IMG/VR virus record: IMGVR_UViG_3300013099_000069
Location: 1 to 27,727 of that record
Origin: a virus
Reading direction: 5' to 3' (one strand)
Length of the DNA stretch: 27,727 nt
A model generated the notes under the pieces. The model was not told the DNA's origin and made no database searches. It saw only the letters and a list, made by a program, of their open reading frames with translations. Of this stretch, positions 4,515 through 24,986 are shown in pieces. Made by a program: the position numbers and the translations under genes. Each line of letters starts with the position of its first letter. The stretch's first letter is position 1.

Positions 4515-5114
4515 ATGAATTTTATATACATTACAACTAATTTAGTGAATGGTAAGCAATATATAGGTTCTCATAATGGAGAAGAAAACGATGAATATCT
4601 GGGAAGCGGAAAATTATTTTCCTTTAAATTAAATGAATATGGTAAAGAAAATTTCAAAAGAGAAATAATAGAAGAATGTGATCCATCTTTAAATTTGGTT
4701 TTAGAAACTAAATATATCGAAGAATACAATACATTAATCCCAAATGGATATAATATTAGCAGAACTGGCGGATTAGGATTAGTTGGCGAACCCTGGGGGA
4801 ATCACACAACTAAAACAAAAAATAGAATTTCAGAAAAACTAACGGGCAGGAAACTATCAGATAAAACAAAGAAAAAAATTAGTATAGCTAATAAAGGAAA
4901 AAAGAGATCAGAAGAAGCAAAAGAAAAATACAGTAAAGCAAAAAAAGGTAAAAAACTATCTGAAGATCATAAAAGAAAAATTAGTGAATCAGAAAAAGGA
5001 AGAATTTTTTCTGAAGATCATAAAAGAAAAATTAGTATATCAAATAAAGGAAAAAACAATCCCATGTACGGAAAAATCCCGTGGAATAAAGGGGGAAAAC
5101 TTAATAAAAAATAA
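4515..5114 (+). CDS. GIY-YIG homing endonuclease with NUMOD3 repeats
   Basis: The N-terminal ~95 residues are a GIY-YIG nuclease domain. FIYITT supplies the first motif and NGKQYIGSH the YIG motif. EYLGSG, NEYGKENFKREIIEEC and the IPNGYNI region follow, as in phage-type GIY-YIG enzymes. The C-terminal half holds tandem NUMOD3-like DNA-binding units (pattern GRKLSDKTKKKIS, KKLSEDHKRKIS, and so on) and ends with a KNNPMYGK/WNKG block. Such enzymes are free-standing homing endonucleases that spread by cutting cognate loci and being copied by recombination. The gene is inserted directly upstream of the gp55-like gene with only 4 nt between them. A second member lies at 22897-23583 on the other strand. 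Confidence 0.9.
   Translation: MNFIYITTNLVNGKQYIGSHNGEENDEYLGSGKLFSFKLNEYGKENFKREIIEECDPSLNLVLETKYIEEYNTLIPNGYNISRTGGLGLVGEPWGNHTTKTKNRISEKLTGRKLSDKTKKKISIANKGKKRSEEAKEKYSKAKKGKKLSEDHKRKISESEKGRIFSEDHKRKISISNKGKNNPMYGKIPWNKGGKLNKK
4959..5036 (+). repeat. 27-nt direct repeat inside the NUMOD3 region
   Basis: An identical 27-nt segment beginning TCTGAAGATCATAAAAG occurs at 4959-4985 and 5010-5036. The copies are 51 nt (17 codons) apart and in the same frame. Each encodes SEDHKRKIS. Perfect nucleotide identity suggests a recent in-frame duplication of one DNA-binding unit. Confidence 0.85.
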
Positions 5115-6809: not shown

Positions 6810-8624
6810 ATGGCAGGTTTTACACTGAGAAATATAGACGGCAAACCATCAGGGTTCATTGCACAAATCCAGCGTAACATTCGTTACATGGCTGGTCTTG
6901 GAATGAAGTATGAGGATGGTATCGTCAAACAATCCAAGGCAATTGGTATCACAGAAGCTACTGAGGATACTATGTACAATATGTACGGCCAATCTCAGAT
7001 ATTTACTGGGAATGATATCGGAGGAAAAGAATTTATTGCGTATTACGACAAAGAATATCCTACACGGAGAGACTTTTTACGTAGATTTGCAATGAATGGT
7101 GAAATTGAACACGTATTAGAAGTAATTAGTGATGAAACTATCATCTTTGACGATAGTAATTATTTCGCATATCCAAATACAAAAGTTTTAAAGTCTGTTT
7201 TAAAACAAGATAAGGCTAAAGAAATTATAGATGACTTAAATGCAGCATATAAAAAGATTTATTATGCGTTTGGATTTAACGATGGACATGATGCTTGGCA
7301 TTATCTGAAGAAATTATTAGTCGATGGTTTCTTAGCATTTGAAATTATCTATGATGTAAATGATAAGGATGATGCAGAAAACGTTATTGGATTTAAAGAA
7401 CTTGATCCAGTTTCTTTAGAGCCTGAATTTAAAAAAGATGAGCTTGGAAATGAATATAAAGTATGGGTTCAGTATAGAGGAGATTCAGAAAGACAAAGAG
7501 AATTACTTGATTCTAACTTAATTTACATATCCTGGGCAAGGACTAATTTCGTTTCAAGATTATCATACGTAGAAAGATTAGTACGTTCATTTAATATGCT
7601 AAGAACTCTTGAAAATTCAAGAATTATTTGGAATGTAATTAACTCACAATATAGAATGAAGATTGTTGTACCTATTGGAACTCAATCTGAAGCAAAAGCA
7701 AGAACTAGATTAGCTGAACTTCGTGGTATGTATAAAGAAGATATTACGATTGCTGATGAATCAGGAGAAGTAACAATTAATGGTCAGCCAAACTTCTCAT
7801 TCGCCAAGACTTATATTTTACCATCTAAAGATGGGGTCGAAACTGTAATTGACTCGTTTAAACCTGAAGGTTATAACATGCAAGATACTGATTCTCTAAA
7901 GTATTTTTGGATGAGATTTATTGTTGAAACTAAAGTACCTGAAAGTAGATTTAGTAATTCAGCTGAAGCTGGAGAAGGCGGTGGTGGTGATGGTGGAAAT
8001 TGGACAGCTGGAGGAGATGGTATTGCAAGAGAAGAAATGAGATTTGGTTATTTTATTAATCGTATTAGATCCATCTTCAAAGATATTCTTCTTAAACCAA
8101 TGTGGATGCAATTCTGTTTAAAACATCCCGAGTTTGCTAATGATATGAACCTAAGAGGTGCAGTTGGTCTTTTATTTGTTGAAGAAAATCTTTTCACAAT
8201 AGCTAAACAAAGAGATATTGCAAACGCTGGAGCTAGTATTGTAACTACTTTATCTGCTATTACACATCCAAGTGTTGGGCCGGATGGCTCACCAGTAGAT
8301 GTACCATTCTTTGATCCTAAATTCTTAATTGAAAAATATATGCAAATGACTGATACAGACATTGCTCTTAATTCAAAATACAGAAAAGAAAGAGAAGAAG
8401 AAATAAGAAAAATGACCGCTGCTTACGCTAGATTAAATGCTGCAAAAGGAACAGGAGATCAAGGTGAAGGTGCAATGGGTGGTGATGAAGGTGGTGGAGG
8501 AATGGACTTCGGTGGTGGAGATGATTTTGGTGGTGGAGATGATTTTGGAGGAGGAGATAGTATGGACTTTGGTGGAGGAGAAGATACTGGAGATACCGGT
8601 GAAGGAGATTTAGGAGATATTTAA
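6810..8624 (+). CDS. 20: Portal vertex protein, T4 gp20-like
   Basis: The portal forms the dodecameric ring through which DNA is packaged and to which the neck binds. Family landmarks are the ELDPVSLEPEF segment, the long helical region SYVERLVRSFNMLRTLENSR and YRMKIVVPIG. ITIADESGEVTING is followed by FSFAKTYILPS-DG-ETVIDSF and the wing/stem part (DSLKYFWMRFIVETKVPESRF). The length (604 aa) is slightly above T4 gp20 (524 aa). The excess is a C-terminal tail of ~50 residues rich in Gly/Asp with DFGGGD repeats. A second Gly run (GEGGGGDGGNW) lies near residue 390, following the conserved ESRF block. Upstream neighbours gp4 and the gp2-like protein fit a head-neck operon. Confidence 0.92.
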   Translation: MAGFTLRNIDGKPSGFIAQIQRNIRYMAGLGMKYEDGIVKQSKAIGITEATEDTMYNMYGQSQIFTGNDIGGKEFIAYYDKEYPTRRDFLRRFAMNGEIEHVLEVISDETIIFDDSNYFAYPNTKVLKSVLKQDKAKEIIDDLNAAYKKIYYAFGFNDGHDAWHYLKKLLVDGFLAFEIIYDVNDKDDAENVIGFKELDPVSLEPEFKKDELGNEYKVWVQYRGDSERQRELLDSNLIYISWARTNFVSRLSYVERLVRSFNMLRTLENSRIIWNVINSQYRMKIVVPIGTQSEAKARTRLAELRGMYKEDITIADESGEVTINGQPNFSFAKTYILPSKDGVETVIDSFKPEGYNMQDTDSLKYFWMRFIVETKVPESRFSNSAEAGEGGGGDGGNWTAGGDGIAREEMRFGYFINRIRSIFKDILLKPMWMQFCLKHPEFANDMNLRGAVGLLFVEENLFTIAKQRDIANAGASIVTTLSAITHPSVGPDGSPVDVPFFDPKFLIEKYMQMTDTDIALNSKYRKEREEEIRKMTAAYARLNAAKGTGDQGEGAMGGDEGGGGMDFGGGDDFGGGDDFGGGDSMDFGGGEDTGDTGEGDLGDI

Positions 8625-8802: not shown

Positions 8803-8825
8803 CAAAATTTTAACAAAAATACAGT

Positions 8826-8852
8826 ACCAATTTTCACATAATTGGTTATATT
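8826..8852 (+). promoter_or_regulatory. Dyad and -10-like box upstream of the tmRNA
   Basis: ACCAATT (8826-8832) and AATTGGT (8840-8846) form a perfect 7-bp inverted repeat. TATATT (8847-8852), a -10-like hexamer, follows directly, about 17 nt before the tmRNA acceptor piece. This could be a promoter with an operator in its spacer. No good -35 box is seen. Confidence 0.35.
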
Positions 8853-8934
8853 AAAGATAATGAAACTCGACGTAAAATCGTCTAGTTGTGAGGTTAGTAT
8901 GTAAGACCGGGGTTCGAGTCCCCGCATCTCCACT

Positions 8935-9028
8935 AATCTCTACCTCGGGTTACGACCTAAATGGTGACCGTCGCAGTGAAGCGAGTGAACAAACACATAA
9001 ATGAGTAACGATAGGGCCGGTAGAGATT
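8935..9028 (+). other. Structured intervening segment of the permuted tmRNA
   Basis: The spacer between mature acceptor and coding pieces is 8933-9039. AATCTCTACC (8935-8944) pairs perfectly with GGTAGAGATT (9019-9028). An inner helix GTTAC/GTAAC (8949-8953 with 9005-9009) and a TCGC/GCGA hairpin (8970-8973 with 8980-8983) nest inside. This would close the precursor and place the tRNA-like ends together for processing. The outer stem is followed by a T run (to 9033) and so also looks like a terminator with a very large loop. Confidence 0.65.
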
Positions 9029-9102
9029 TTTTTAATTAGGGGGATGACATGGATTTGATTGCATATGAGAGTAGCAGTGAGCAGGTTTCAGCAACGCTAA
9101 AC

Positions 9103-9135
9103 GGCGTACAAAGTGAAATGGCTATGGCTGCCTAA
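9103..9135 (+). other. tmRNA tag reading frame, predicted GVQSEMAMAA
   Basis: The frame ending at TAA 9133-9135 reads GVQSEMAMAA when it begins at GGC 9103. The preceding bases TAAAC resemble the pre-resume sequence of other tmRNAs, and 10 codons is a usual tag length. The ending MAA replaces the common LAA. A start at GCA 9091 would add ATLN to the front; that is the main alternative. Confidence 0.65.
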
Positions 9136-9158
9136 GAGGCACCATACCAAGGAGACTT

Positions 9159-9186
9159 GCCCACTACCTAAGTGTGGGCTTTTTTC
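9159..9186 (+). terminator. Rho-independent terminator of the tmRNA
   Basis: GCCCAC (9159-9164) pairs with GTGGGC (9174-9179) around a 9-nt loop. Six T residues (9180-9185) follow. It ends the tmRNA transcript and separates it from the next gene. Confidence 0.85.
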
Positions 9187-9222: not shown

Positions 9223-9693
9223 ATGAAAGCAGGAACTTTTAACCACCAAGAATATTTAGATAGACTTCATGAAGAAGCAGAAGGTAACACTGAAAAAGGT
9301 TATATTCTATCTGACACTGCGGGGCTTCCGCTTCCAGAAGATACTAAGAAGAACTTTGATTGGCTTAATAAAGAATACCAAAAAGGTAAAGTTGAGGTTC
9401 AGGTTGTGGTTAAAGGTGAAGGATCATCTTTCAAGCCTGGTTATGATCTCCAAACTGATTTGAAATCTGTTAAAGATTTTAAGCCTGGAATGTATGGTGA
9501 TGTAAAAACAACTCAAAGTGAAACCCCCGAACCAAAATCTCCTAAAAATAAAAAGGAAGGAACACCAGCTGAAGGAAAAGTTCCACCAGGTGATAACGAA
9601 ACTAAAGATAAAGACAAAAAAGCAGACACATCTGCTGAGGCGCAATCTTTAGAAATTGATGCCACAAAAAAGAAAAAGGATGATAAAAAATAA
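9223..9693 (+). CDS. Hypothetical protein with disordered Lys/Glu-rich tail (156 aa)
   Basis: The first ~100 residues look folded, with an N-terminal helix (QEYLDRLHEEAEG) and a beta strand (KVEVQVVVKGEG). The last ~55 are low complexity, rich in Lys, Glu, Pro, Asp and Thr, and end in KKKKDDKK. I recognise no family. It is preceded by a strong late-promoter-like element and its 3' end overlaps the next start. The size and charged tail would fit a virion-associated or DNA-associated small protein, but nothing proves this. Confidence 0.6.
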   Translation: MKAGTFNHQEYLDRLHEEAEGNTEKGYILSDTAGLPLPEDTKKNFDWLNKEYQKGKVEVQVVVKGEGSSFKPGYDLQTDLKSVKDFKPGMYGDVKTTQSETPEPKSPKNKKEGTPAEGKVPPGDNETKDKDKKADTSAEAQSLEIDATKKKKDDKK

Positions 9694-11576: not shown

Positions 11577-12197
11577 ATGAAGAAAAACAATTCTGTTCAA
11601 ACTACTGCATTAAATTTCGTAGAAAAAAGAGACAACCAAACCTTTAGTGATTTAATGGACCGTTTGAGACCTGGATTGACATCTTTTGTCTATAGATACA
11701 TTCAAGATAAAGATGTCATTAATGAAGTATTATCACAAACATTTATTTCAATTTGGGAAAAAGTCGACCAATACAATTCCAAGTATAATTTTTCAACTTG
11801 GGCATACGCAATAGCAAAAAATGAGGCACTTGGTCAAATTAGAAATAGAAACAAAAATTTATCACATGATAGATTAACTGAGAATCATTCAAAAATTCTC
11901 AAAGCCTACTCACCAACCGATAGTTTAGAAACTGAGGTTATCGGTCCTGTTGGAGAAGAATTAATACAACAATTATATGACGCTTCGGTCAATGCAATAC
12001 ACTCTCTAAAGGAGCCATATAGAACTGTAATGATAGAAAGAGAAGTTAATAGGAAACAACTACAAACTATCGCAGAAGAATTAGGATGGAACACATCAAC
12101 TGTTAAAACTCGTTTACGAAAAGCAAGGAAAGACATTGCAAACAACGTTAAAAAACAATTTCCTGATTTAGTAGACGCATACAGGGAGGATGATTAA
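11577..12197 (+). CDS. ECF-type RNA polymerase sigma factor
   Basis: The protein has the two-domain build of group 4 (ECF) sigma factors. Region 2 spans ~22-92, with DVINEVLSQTFISIWEKVDQY matching the 'D-A-EDlvQetFl-aw' helix and YNFSTWAYAIAKNEALGQIRNR matching the 'f-tWLy-IArN---d-lR' helix. Region 4 spans ~138-190, with LKEPYRTVMIEREVNRKQLQTIAEELGW and the helix-turn-helix NTSTVKTRLRKARKDI. The linker is ~45 residues. It would redirect host RNA polymerase to a set of phage or host promoters. It is distinct from the gp55-like protein at 5119. A host-type promoter precedes it and the next gene starts immediately after its stop. Confidence 0.85.
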   Translation: MKKNNSVQTTALNFVEKRDNQTFSDLMDRLRPGLTSFVYRYIQDKDVINEVLSQTFISIWEKVDQYNSKYNFSTWAYAIAKNEALGQIRNRNKNLSHDRLTENHSKILKAYSPTDSLETEVIGPVGEELIQQLYDASVNAIHSLKEPYRTVMIEREVNRKQLQTIAEELGWNTSTVKTRLRKARKDIANNVKKQFPDLVDAYREDD

Positions 12198-12401
12198 ATG
12201 GAAAAGAAAAATTTAGTGGAAAATGAGTGGAAATTTTTAAGTTCGCTTTCATATGCTGGCAGCCATTATTCTATATGGGTAAGAGCTGTTATTAGCGAAG
12301 ATGGAGTTAGCTTAGAATCAAGAGCTCTAGAATCCACTATAGAAGAAATAAAAGAAGCTAAGGAAAATTATCCAATAACGTATTTTACAAATTTATCATG
12401 A
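12198..12401 (+). CDS. Hypothetical protein (67 aa)
   Basis: The ATG directly follows the sigma factor stop and has GGAGG 9 nt upstream, one of the few Shine-Dalgarno-like sites in the window. The sequence is acidic, with a central beta segment (SIWVRAVISEDG) and a helix (STIEEIKEAKENY). Its last 4 nt overlap the next start (ATGA). Tight coupling to the sigma gene raises the possibility of a functional link, such as an antisigma or accessory factor, but no motif shows it. Confidence 0.6.
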   Translation: MEKKNLVENEWKFLSSLSYAGSHYSIWVRAVISEDGVSLESRALESTIEEIKEAKENYPITYFTNLS

Positions 12402-12979
12402 GTGATGGATATTCAGAAGCCAGGGAAGGGACCTATTTTAAAGATAGGTCTTCCCTGTCTACAAGGTATTATTCAATAGGCACTCATGTCAATATTTGGT
12501 TTATTGGATTACCTCAAGCAGGGAAATCAACATTTGCCCAAGAATTGGCAGATAGATCAGAAAGAAAACCTTTCATATTAGATGGAGATGCATTACGAAA
12601 AGGCTTAAATAGCGACCTAGAATTTTCACCTGAAGATAGGACAGAAAATCTTAGAAGGGCTGCAGAAGTAGCAAAAATGATATATAATCTAGGCTATAAT
12701 GTTTTTTCAGCTTTTATAACTCCTTCTGAGAAGGATAGAGATCTAATAAAAAGCATTATTCCTGAAGTAAAATTTGTATGGGTTCAAGCACCTCTCGCAC
12801 TTTGCGAAGAAAGAGATACTAGAGGCATGTATAAATTAGCAAGAGACGGAAAAATTAAAAATTTCACTGGAGTTGATGCTCCATTCGAAGTTCCTGGTAA
12901 TTGCTGGGCTGTAGTTGACACAAAAAATGAAGAATTGAAAACTAATGTCAACCAGCTCATAAAATATTTAAATGATTAA
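12398..12979 (+). CDS. cysC: APS kinase-like protein (CysC family)
   Basis: CysC phosphorylates adenylylsulfate to PAPS. After a ~28-residue N-terminal extension the P-loop is GLPQAGKST (37-45), then FILDGDALRKGLNSDLEFS (59-77), RTENLRRAAEVAKM (81-94) and SAFITP (104-109). The carboxy block is GMYKLARDGKIKNFTG (143-158), then VDAPFE. All these blocks match APS kinase in order and spacing. Two changes deserve note: the usual FISP with its serine is FITP, and the arginine-containing segment after it reads SEKDR. Substrate binding may therefore differ. No sulfurylase partner is visible. The gene overlaps its predecessor by 4 nt and precedes a membrane protein gene by 2 nt. Confidence 0.82.
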   Translation: MSDGYSEAREGTYFKDRSSLSTRYYSIGTHVNIWFIGLPQAGKSTFAQELADRSERKPFILDGDALRKGLNSDLEFSPEDRTENLRRAAEVAKMIYNLGYNVFSAFITPSEKDRDLIKSIIPEVKFVWVQAPLALCEERDTRGMYKLARDGKIKNFTGVDAPFEVPGNCWAVVDTKNEELKTNVNQLIKYLND

Positions 12980-22117: not shown

Positions 22118-22927
22118 CTACAACCAGGGAACATCGAACTTGTGGATCTTCTTTTCTAATTTCTTAACTTTCACATTATTGTCAGGGACATTAAATAACA
22201 TAATTGCATTATCTCCTTCTTTCCAATTTTCCCACCTCTCTACAGCATCATCTATTAATTCTTTCTTAAAATGATTTTTAGCACTCCAGTTTTCTAATTT
22301 CTTCCGGATATCTCTTCTAATCCATGCTGCATGGCCCATTCTGAGCTCACTGTCTTCAAAGATATAGGTACCTAGGTTAGAGGGGTTGTTGATCCTTCTA
22401 GTGGGATCGGTGGGACCCGGAGCAGGTCCCTGGTAAGTATATTTAAAGAAGGTTGAATGAACAAACGGGACGAATGGTCGAAATGGATAAACTAAGTAAT
22501 GTTCAAAATCTCTATAGTAATTTACATAAGAACAGTACGTAATAGTGTAGCCTCTTGTAGCAATTAAATCAAGCGCTGATTCAAATTGATCTGCATCATA
22601 AAACTCATCTGAATCCGCATTTAATATATGACTGTATCCTTGACGTTTCATCAAATCTATACCCATGTTTCTTTTTTCGCACTCTTGCTCTCGAGAATAT
22701 TTCGCGAAGTTGGGCTTAAACTCAATAAGCTCATCAACCAATCCAAGAGTTTTAAGACGAAGAAGCTCTTCCATATCCTCGTCAGCCATAGGATTTTTCC
22801 AATATGATAATTTTTGATAAATAGCAGCAACATGATCAACTTGATCACGGATTTCAGATATTAAAGGTTCTAATAATTCTGATGAGTCAAAAGCATTTAG
22901 GGTAAGAGCGAGTTTTTTAATTGCCAT
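22118..22927 (-). CDS. Glycosyltransferase-like protein (269 aa)
   Basis: The fold suggested is GT-A. An N-terminal strand and turn KKLALTLNAFDSSELL (4-19) is followed by a helical region, then EKRNMGIDLMKRQGYSHILNADSDEFYD (84-111). The last part has D105-S-D107, a DxD-type metal/nucleotide-sugar site. This block matches family-2-like glycosyltransferases of phages and bacteria. The remainder has many Tyr, Phe and Trp residues and an HAAWIRRDIRKKLENW segment. It may modify virion proteins, phage DNA or the host surface. Its start lies 31 nt inside the upstream homing endonuclease gene. Confidence 0.72.
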   Translation of the reverse strand: MAIKKLALTLNAFDSSELLEPLISEIRDQVDHVAAIYQKLSYWKNPMADEDMEELLRLKTLGLVDELIEFKPNFAKYSREQECEKRNMGIDLMKRQGYSHILNADSDEFYDADQFESALDLIATRGYTITYCSYVNYYRDFEHYLVYPFRPFVPFVHSTFFKYTYQGPAPGPTDPTRRINNPSNLGTYIFEDSELRMGHAAWIRRDIRKKLENWSAKNHFKKELIDDAVERWENWKEGDNAIMLFNVPDNNVKVKKLEKKIHKFDVPWL

Positions 22928-23583
22928 AATTTTTTTTCTTTTTCTAATAATCTTCGTTTTCTTTGCGCAATTTTTATATTTTTTCTAGCTTCATCTGATC
23001 TAGGTTTACGCATTTTCTTTTTAGTTTCTTCTGAATGAGTTTTTTCGTACATGCCATTTTTAGATCCAGTTATCTTATCTCCGTTATTATACATTGGATT
23101 ATTGGATCCGCTTGTTGCAATTTTAATTTTATTTTTATATTCTTTAGATCGTCTAATACCCTCTTTTTCTCCGTAAATATTTATCATTTGATCTTCATAA
23201 CTTTTTCCTTTTTTATTCAAAGTATTAAATTCTGATAAATATTTACTAATTTTTCCAGTATGTGCCATTCCAATTTTATATCGGGTTTCTTTTGATAAAA
23301 AGGAATTAGGAATTCCATATCCTCCCTTAGGGCTAATATTATATCCATTCGGAGATAATGTGATATATTCGTTTATCCATTTTTCTTGGGCATCATCAAA
23401 AAATCCTAAAATTTCTTTTTTAAAATTTTCTTTTCCATATTTTCTTATAGCATTTTTAAAATATGTTCCACTACCTAAATAAGGATCTTTAGATGGATCA
23501 CAATTACATGATCTATCACCTATATATTGTTTATTATTAATTAAGCAAGTAGTTACATAAACATAATTAAATTTCTTAACCAT
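22897..23583 (-). CDS. GIY-YIG homing endonuclease (228 aa)
   Basis: The N-terminal domain has FNYVYVTT and NNKQYIGDR, then YLGSGTYFKNAIRKYGKENFKKEIL and the SPNGYNISPKGGYG end. It is colinear with the enzyme at 4515. The C-terminal half is basic, with NUMOD-like units (LSKETRYKIGMAHTGKIS, HSEETKKKMRKPRSDEARKNI) and NNPMYNN. It is a free-standing homing endonuclease. Its 3' end overlaps the glycosyltransferase start by 31 nt. This suggests that insertion created the present junction. Confidence 0.88.
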   Translation of the reverse strand: MVKKFNYVYVTTCLINNKQYIGDRSCNCDPSKDPYLGSGTYFKNAIRKYGKENFKKEILGFFDDAQEKWINEYITLSPNGYNISPKGGYGIPNSFLSKETRYKIGMAHTGKISKYLSEFNTLNKKGKSYEDQMINIYGEKEGIRRSKEYKNKIKIATSGSNNPMYNNGDKITGSKNGMYEKTHSEETKKKMRKPRSDEARKNIKIAQRKRRLLEKEKKLWQLKNSLLP

Positions 23584-23766: not shown

Positions 23767-23988
23767 TTAAAATTTTAATTGTTTTCTTTCTTTTTTAATA
23801 TGTTTTGAGGTAGTTCTCATATAATCAACAATAGATTTCCTCTTTCTTTTATCTATCTCCTTTATAGATTTGCTAACTCTTATGAGTATCATCACTAGTA
23901 AAACTATAGATATTGCCCCCATTAAAATAGCAAAATATAAAAAATGCTCTGTTATCCAGTGATTATCAAAAATATTTAGAAAAATCAT
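23767..23988 (-). CDS. Small single-span membrane protein (73 aa)
   Basis: One transmembrane helix is clear (FLYFAILMGAISIVLLVMILI, ~16-36). A strongly basic cytoplasmic tail follows (SIKEIDKRKRKSIVDYMRTTSKHIKKERKQLKF). The start overlaps the thyA stop by 4 nt (ATGA), so translation is coupled. I recognise no family. Confidence 0.62.
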   Translation of the reverse strand: MIFLNIFDNHWITEHFLYFAILMGAISIVLLVMILIRVSKSIKEIDKRKRKSIVDYMRTTSKHIKKERKQLKF

Positions 23989-24986
23989 ATTGCTACAGGC
24001 ACATTTTTCCAGTTAGGATGCGCATCATAATTTTTTAATTCAAAATCACTTGGTTCAAAATCCCAAAATCCTTTGTCTAGATTTAATTTCATTGTAGGAG
24101 GAGCTGATTTTGAAGACCTATTTAGTTGCTTAAATATGTATTCAAGATGATTTTCGTAAATATGCACATCTCCAGCTGAAATAGTTAAATTTCCTGCAAT
24201 CATTCCAACTTCTTGAGCTAACATCTGAAGCAATAAAGCATAAGACGCTATATTAAATGGCCCTCCTAATAAAATATCCCATGAACGAATATTCATTTTA
24301 AGATTCAACACTCTTTTATCAGTTTTAGGATATTTCCTTGTATCACACTGAAAACTCCAGTGACATGGTGGTAAAGCCATATCAGGAATCTGATCCACAT
24401 GCCAAGCAGATACAATCATTCTCCTATCATCTGGATTGGTTTTAAGAGTATCAATTAAATTTTGAATTTGGTTGATAGATTTATGTCTTGCCTTGAAGCC
24501 TCCTGGGTAATGAGTTAATCCCTTTTTCCATGTATTAGATAATTCACTATCAGGCTTTACATATGTCCAATTCACCCATTGGTGTCCATAGACTGGTCCA
24601 AGTTCTCCGGTTTCATCATCTCCCCATTCATCCCAGATAGTAGTTTCATACTTATCTCTAAGGACATGTTTATTTGTAGATCCTGAAAGAAACCACAATA
24701 ATTCTCCAATAATAGATTTTAGGTGAACTTTTTTTGTAGTAAGTAATGGAAAAGATGATCCAACATGTTCAAATGTAACTTGGGGAGCGAAGATAGATAA
24801 AGTTTTAGTTCCTGTTCTATTCTCTTTCCATAATCCTTCTTCAAGAATTTTTTCAATTAAAGTATGATACTCATAATCAACAGAATTTAAAATTGACCCG
24901 CTTGATTTAAACTCTCCTGCTTTTGTTTGAGCAGGATTACATTTATTAACTGGAAATTCCTCTCCTGTCCACTTATTTTTTATCAT
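23985..24986 (-). CDS. thyA: Thymidylate synthase ThyA
   Basis: It methylates dUMP to dTMP with methylenetetrahydrofolate. Visible hallmarks are FPLLTTKKVHLKSIIGELLWFL (79-100), the arginine pair DRRMIVSAW (187-195) and catalytic Cys208 in LPPCHWSFQ. RSWDILLGGPFNIASYALL (234-252) and the GDVHIYENH block (272-280) complete the set. The first ~35 residues are an N-terminal extension relative to E. coli ThyA (264 aa), giving 333 residues. The gene lies 44 nt downstream of the tape-measure stop in the minus-strand operon. With tmk at 9971 it supplies thymidine nucleotides for phage DNA. Confidence 0.95.
   Translation of the reverse strand: MIKNKWTGEEFPVNKCNPAQTKAGEFKSSGSILNSVDYEYHTLIEKILEEGLWKENRTGTKTLSIFAPQVTFEHVGSSFPLLTTKKVHLKSIIGELLWFLSGSTNKHVLRDKYETTIWDEWGDDETGELGPVYGHQWVNWTYVKPDSELSNTWKKGLTHYPGGFKARHKSINQIQNLIDTLKTNPDDRRMIVSAWHVDQIPDMALPPCHWSFQCDTRKYPKTDKRVLNLKMNIRSWDILLGGPFNIASYALLLQMLAQEVGMIAGNLTISAGDVHIYENHLEYIFKQLNRSSKSAPPTMKLNLDKGFWDFEPSDFELKNYDAHPNWKNVPVAI

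Follow-up and report, generated by a model that had tools for sequence, protein, structure and literature searches.

The 27,727-base IMG/VR fragment analysed here, hereafter the window, carries downstream of its portal gene what is, as judged from its sequence, a genuine circularly permuted (two-piece) phage ssrA gene. The tRNA-like 3' half comes first (8883-8932), 107 nt follow, and the 5' half begins at 9040 (Table 1). The gene most likely specifies a functional two-piece tmRNA of a T4-type, Lak-related phage, a reading that we hold with a probability of about 0.85. A T4-like origin had been proposed in the initial annotation and agrees with the T4 gp20-like portal and the adjoining head-closure and end-protector families. 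Permuted tmRNA is known as a kind, and it is the lineage of the copies in this phage clade that appears to be new. Since the nearest relatives keep the one-piece gene, the two-piece group probably documents a change from the one-piece to the two-piece form within phages. The host is probably a member of the Bacteroidota, to which relatives and binning point. Other genes of the window include a sigma-70 family factor (11577-12197), an adenylylsulphate kinase (12398-12979) and a thymidylate synthase (23985-24986).

Table 1. Features of the permuted tmRNA gene and its neighbourhood in the window.
Feature	Position	Strand	Basis or remark
Portal gene (T4 gp20 family)	6810-8624	+	PHROG 213, E 1.3e-46; conserved upstream neighbour
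Promoter-like stretch GTACCA...TATATT	8824-8853	+	Upstream of tmRNA gene; sequence inference only
Acceptor piece 5' hairpin (GACG/CGTC)	8869-8882	+	Reading of sequence
Acceptor piece (tRNA-like 3' half)	8883-8932	+	Rfam match, inspection, pair conservation
Helix 2, TATGTA with TGCATA	8898-8903 with 9060-9065	+	Inspection
T arm	8908-8924	+	Inspection; T stem 8908-8912/8920-8924
Acceptor 3' strand CATCTCC	8925-8931	+	Inspection; discriminator A8932
Intervening sequence, 107 nt	8933-9039	+	Between pieces; predicted to be removed
Structured insert inside spacer	8935-9028	+	Closed by AATCTCTACC/GGTAGAGATT
Tag piece 5' part	9040-9102	+	G1 = 9040; Rfam match, inspection
Acceptor 5' strand GGGGATG	9040-9046	+	Inspection
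Resume context TAAAC	9098-9102	+	Inspection
Tag frame GVQSEMAMAA, GGC 9103 to stop TAA	9103-9135	+	Reading; ARAGORN same frame in sisters
Stop-codon hairpin TGCCT-AAG-AGGCA	9128-9140	+	Varied with compensation in most sister copies
Terminator-like hairpin GCCCAC/GTGGGC, then six T	9159-9185	+	Inspection
ORF MKAG.FN...YL	9223-9693	+	Conserved downstream neighbour

In a search of the window with Rfam, positions 8873-9135 of the plus strand match the full length (1-213) of the permuted tmRNA model RF04321 (tmRNA_permuted) with 58.1 bits and an E-value of 4.6e-9, the gathering cut-off being 47 bits. The model of one-piece tmRNA, RF00023, was also tried and rejected, only its 3' half matching the window with 35.7 bits, under its cut-off of 47. 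ARAGORN makes no tmRNA call in the window; it labels about half of the sister copies described below as 'tmRNA*', and where it does so its tag frames agree with manual reading. Standard annotation with this program overlooks about half of the permuted genes of the clade. The initial annotation had proposed a circularly permuted tmRNA at 8869-9179, whose halves are complementary in the acceptor stem and in helix 2, with a G3-U70 wobble and a tag frame, and all of this is upheld by the Rfam match, by the pairs and the frame read in the window, where G3 (9042) faces U70 (8929) on inspection, and by conservation among 18 copies. The piece coordinates given there were also right, with 8932 and 9040 as the predicted mature ends. 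It had suggested a check with the permuted Rfam models (alpha, beta and cyano types) and ARAGORN; RF04321 matches over its cut-off, the three lineage models stay under theirs and ARAGORN is silent.

Folding of the two window pieces alone does not discriminate them from shuffled sequences, 44 of 300 shuffles folding as low, and the evidence for a tmRNA is comparative. The portal gene served to gather relatives in two rounds, of 13 and 80 IMG/VR loci. In the first round eight contigs match RF04321, six of them over the cut-off and two, L010 and L011, under it; in the second round 11 contigs of the clade do, ten over the cut-off and one just below, and one further copy in a Bacteroidales MAG sits on a phage contig (L179). 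After merging of near-copies (L007 with L008 and L009, L124 with L125), 18 distinct copies including that of the window are left. In all 17 contigs on which both genes could be placed, they share a strand, and the distance from the portal stop to the start of the acceptor piece downstream is 9-2,723 bp. The downstream MKAG.FN...YL frame also follows the portal in L048 and L061, which lie inside the clade and have no tmRNA gene at the portal-downstream site, so that loss or movement also occurs; a pairing scan of L048, L061, L015 and L078 found no permuted tmRNA.

The pairs of the seven-pair acceptor stem and the five-pair T stem are standard in 216 of 216 cases across the 18 copies, with compensatory changes; acceptor positions 4-7 show two to four pair types each, and G3-U70 is invariant. 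When 5' halves were swapped between copies, acceptor pairing fell to a mean of 85% and was complete in 0 of 2000 swaps, a figure that is not a probability because the copies are related. The tags are 10-12 residues long and differ in length by complete codons downstream of an unvarying TAANN; they end mostly in M, I or L followed by AA, as in GVNKNEMAMAA of L027 (ARAGORN and reading) and GAQFNEYRIAA of L129. They mostly begin with Gly, the exceptions being Ala in L120 and Asp in L127. For L027 an automatic reading, KNEMAMAA, was discarded, as it began late, at an internal TAAAT. In most copies the stop codon lies inside a short hairpin and a terminator-like hairpin comes after; CCA is likewise not encoded in most, CTA following A8932 in the window. 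The hairpin at the 5' end of the acceptor piece is kept in sisters with other letters, for example GACAC/GTGTC in L007 and GGC-UACG-GCC in L003, and a stretch resembling the promoter-like one of the window also precedes the gene in L004-L007 and L010.

Could the match be due to chance, or the gene be a decayed remnant? The uninformative folding of the window, the failure of ARAGORN on this copy and the unusual T loops of three copies (L127, L130 and L033) point in that direction, but they are set against the E-value, the compensatory changes together with the invariant wobble, and a position conserved relative to the portal. Moreover, a decayed copy in the window would be expected to show disrupted pairing or an interrupted tag, neither of which is seen. 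Chance or decay is therefore very improbable.

The spacer is 15-21 nt long in nine sister copies and 45-186 nt in the others. The structured insert in the window spacer is common to L007 (7217-7306), with a compensated inner hairpin (TCGC/GCGA versus TTGC/GCAA), and most sister copies lack it. Scans for exact patterns recovered it from the three L007-type contigs alone, and positions 8935-9028 have no match in Rfam. Other copies carry different inserts, some of them shared, namely L128 with L130 and L124 with L129. In crAss-like phages, a tRNA gene lies inside the permuted tmRNA spacer of cr114_1 (L213, 670-741), and in cr56_1 (L210, 669-1244) and cr113_1 (L211, 672-1253) the span of the permuted tmRNA includes an endonuclease gene, which by eye looks HNH-like and is apparently near the T arm. 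The window itself has two homing-endonuclease-like open reading frames elsewhere, one at 4515-5114 with GIY-YIG and NUMOD3 (Pfam) and one at 22897-23583, which share a 71% inverted repeat.

If the gene works as its parts suggest, the transcript would run from the tRNA-like 3' half through the spacer and the 5' half with the tag to the terminator, the halves pairing in the acceptor stem and helix 2. Host RNase P would cut at G1 (9040), and an RNase Z-type cut or trimming would leave the acceptor piece ending at A8932. Where CCA is not encoded in a tRNA, enzymes trim the end and add CCA, and since CCA is unencoded in most copies, host end trimming and a CCA-adding enzyme probably complete the acceptor piece. 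The two pieces would remain paired and be charged by AlaRS through G3-U70, and together with SmpB they would free stalled ribosomes and append the host-like degradation tag GVQSEMAMAA. The phage would likely benefit from a supply of rescue capacity during the cutting of its own and the host's mRNAs. Lak-A1, Lak-B4 and four large one-piece contigs have an SmpB gene, and none was found in LR756500, in the 323-kb permuted contig G014 or in the other permuted fragments searched, an absence that is suggestive only, because the fragments are incomplete. With none detected among the permuted phages, function would need the SmpB of the host.

The lack of a detected phage SmpB would also suit an RNA that binds SmpB or enters ribosomes and so blocks host trans-translation instead of tagging, as proposed for the TLD-only RNA of phage DS6A; a TLD-like molecule does inhibit host tmRNA (PMC4131195). 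However, the tag frame, the stop-codon hairpin and the protease-type C-terminus are kept throughout the clade, and these speak against such a decoy because it would not need them. A blocking role is accordingly improbable, and a working, tagging tmRNA is preferred.

As to the lineage, the window portal groups with those of Lak phages at about 42-44% identity, in a group of 25 rows with an SH-aLRT of 100 (a quick search with some long branches). A portal tree of 64 rows unites the permuted phages in a single clade (21 rows, SH-aLRT 95), and the sister clade holds Lak; because of the quick search and long branches in the sister, the clade itself is more secure than the identity of its sister. 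One change of form suffices for the labelled rows of this tree. In Lak-A1 and Lak-B4 the tmRNA gene is of the standard one-piece form and shortly precedes the portal, LR756500 and LR756504 have a one-piece gene elsewhere, and four large contigs whose portals are about 38-40% identical have the one-piece form over the cut-off. Because the Lak gene lies upstream of the portal and the present one downstream, simple permutation in place would not explain the present gene. Some one-piece tmRNAs of huge phages (L132, L133, L134 and L035), in which ARAGORN finds no tmRNA, appear by eye to encode tags of 24-36 residues, for example GNVITNEVGSKADVLAVLKTVKAKPSVAQVEELEIA.

The three older lineage models do not fit the clade. 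For alpha_tmRNA (RF01849, cut-off 50) the window has no match over the cut-off and the model is not the best clan member, the best score listed in the clade being 39.2; beta_tmRNA (RF01850, cut-off 84) and cyano_tmRNA (RF01851, cut-off 70) are also under their cut-offs, with 49.6 and 48 as the best listed in the clade. The best-scoring lineage model differs from copy to copy, while as a control the alpha-type phage RpAliso scores 82.6 with RF01849. On permuted genes the best older model has a higher average score than RF04321 (PMC11915505), and in this clade the reverse is found. The alpha, beta and cyano lineages were compared only by way of these Rfam models and a few alpha-type phages; the alpha-type phage copies examined have Ala-initiated tags and encode CCA.

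Among 395 Bacteroidota genomes RF04321 occurs in two, once on a phage contig of the clade (L179, the Bacteroidales match) and once in a copy of crAss-like type (L178, from G300), so a host chromosome with the gene of the clade was not seen among them; the standard one-piece tmRNA is present in 40 of 41 Bacteroidota genomes. The copy in L178 (G300:C1:986035-986308) adjoins tRNA genes on a long Bacteroidota contig. The resume context UAAAC/U-GGC and the Gly-initiated tags of the clade match those of Bacteroidota one-piece tmRNAs with a TTTGA motif, whose tags also begin with Gly and follow the same UAA-NN-GGC context. The Gly start characterises only some members of the phylum, because other Bacteroidota genomes have Ala- or Asp-initiated tags.

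The initial annotation had left two origins side by side, transfer from an unrelated lineage and independent permutation, and the evidence leans to the latter without settling the matter. That a one-piece gene of Bacteroidota type was permuted once, at the base of the clade, is favoured, with roughly even odds, because of the single change on the portal tree, the Bacteroidota-type tag and context and the lack of fit to the alpha, beta and cyano models. The contending account is that the clade acquired a true tmRNA already permuted, either from a source of alpha, beta or cyano type or from another Bacteroidota phage such as a crAss-like one; it contests the lineage only and is compatible with the functional reading. 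A tree of the tRNA-like domain (65 sequences, 64 columns), in which the permuted phage copies do not come together, is poorly resolved, and because so short a domain cannot decide, borrowing is possible. This account also agrees with the location of the gene on the other side of the portal than in Lak, and with crAss-like permuted tmRNAs having Gly-initiated tags in a similar TAACT-GGC context. Nevertheless, the older clade models fit poorly here in spite of their higher average score on known permuted genes, the alpha-type phage copies differ in tag start and CCA, and the tags and tails of the clade are unlike those of the crAss-like copies, and acquisition in permuted form is the less probable origin, though a serious contender. 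The favoured permutation within the phages would mean that a separate permuted lineage arose in Bacteroidota phages without an ancestor in the three bacterial lineages, which is about an even chance, with the crAss-like copies maybe a further separate case.

Bacterial permuted tmRNA genes have been attributed to three main lineages (PMC11915505), and the alpha, beta and cyano types (RF01849, RF01850 and RF01851) share with the present gene the order of the halves and the tRNA-like core, differing as described above. In phages the one-piece gene had been taken as the usual form, a view that does not stand, since 53 of 133 distinct phage tmRNA structures are two-piece, mostly from marine or aquatic phages; their permuted genes follow the alpha, gamma/beta or cyano lineages, and that of Melnitz has a glutamine riboswitch (PMC9004378). 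Like Melnitz and those phages, the present clade has a two-piece tmRNA with a tag in many related phages. It differs from them in that no lineage model of the three fits it and in its mostly Gly-initiated tags. A search that covered neither subscription papers nor preprints found no paper that describes a permuted tmRNA for either Lak-related or crAss-like phages, and crAss-like records annotate their permuted genes merely as 'SsrA'. The crAss-like phages, which are predicted to infect Bacteroidales (PMC6235969), share with the clade the leading 3' half, G3-U70, the Gly-initiated tag and the lack of an encoded CCA (cr60_1, NC_055891; cr52_1, cr114_1, cr125_1, cr115_1 and cr10_1), whereas their tags have 14-15 residues where read, helix 2 differs and the gene often extends into a tRNA that lies downstream. 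For huge phages, tmRNA and SmpB have been published in work using ARAGORN, with Bacteroidetes hosts predicted for Lak and the largest Mahaphages (PMC7162821). The Lak and huge phages (MK250016, MK250023, LR756500 and LR756504) are the portal relatives of the clade, and the tag of LR756500, GNNAEMRMAA, resembles GVQSEMAMAA; they differ in the standard order of the gene, upstream of the portal in Lak, and most of the large one-piece relatives searched encode SmpB, in contrast to the two-piece clade, in which none was detected. In a clade sampled this densely, the transition from the one-piece to the two-piece form could be located on a tree, intermediates could be sought, and the cost or benefit of the transition could be asked.
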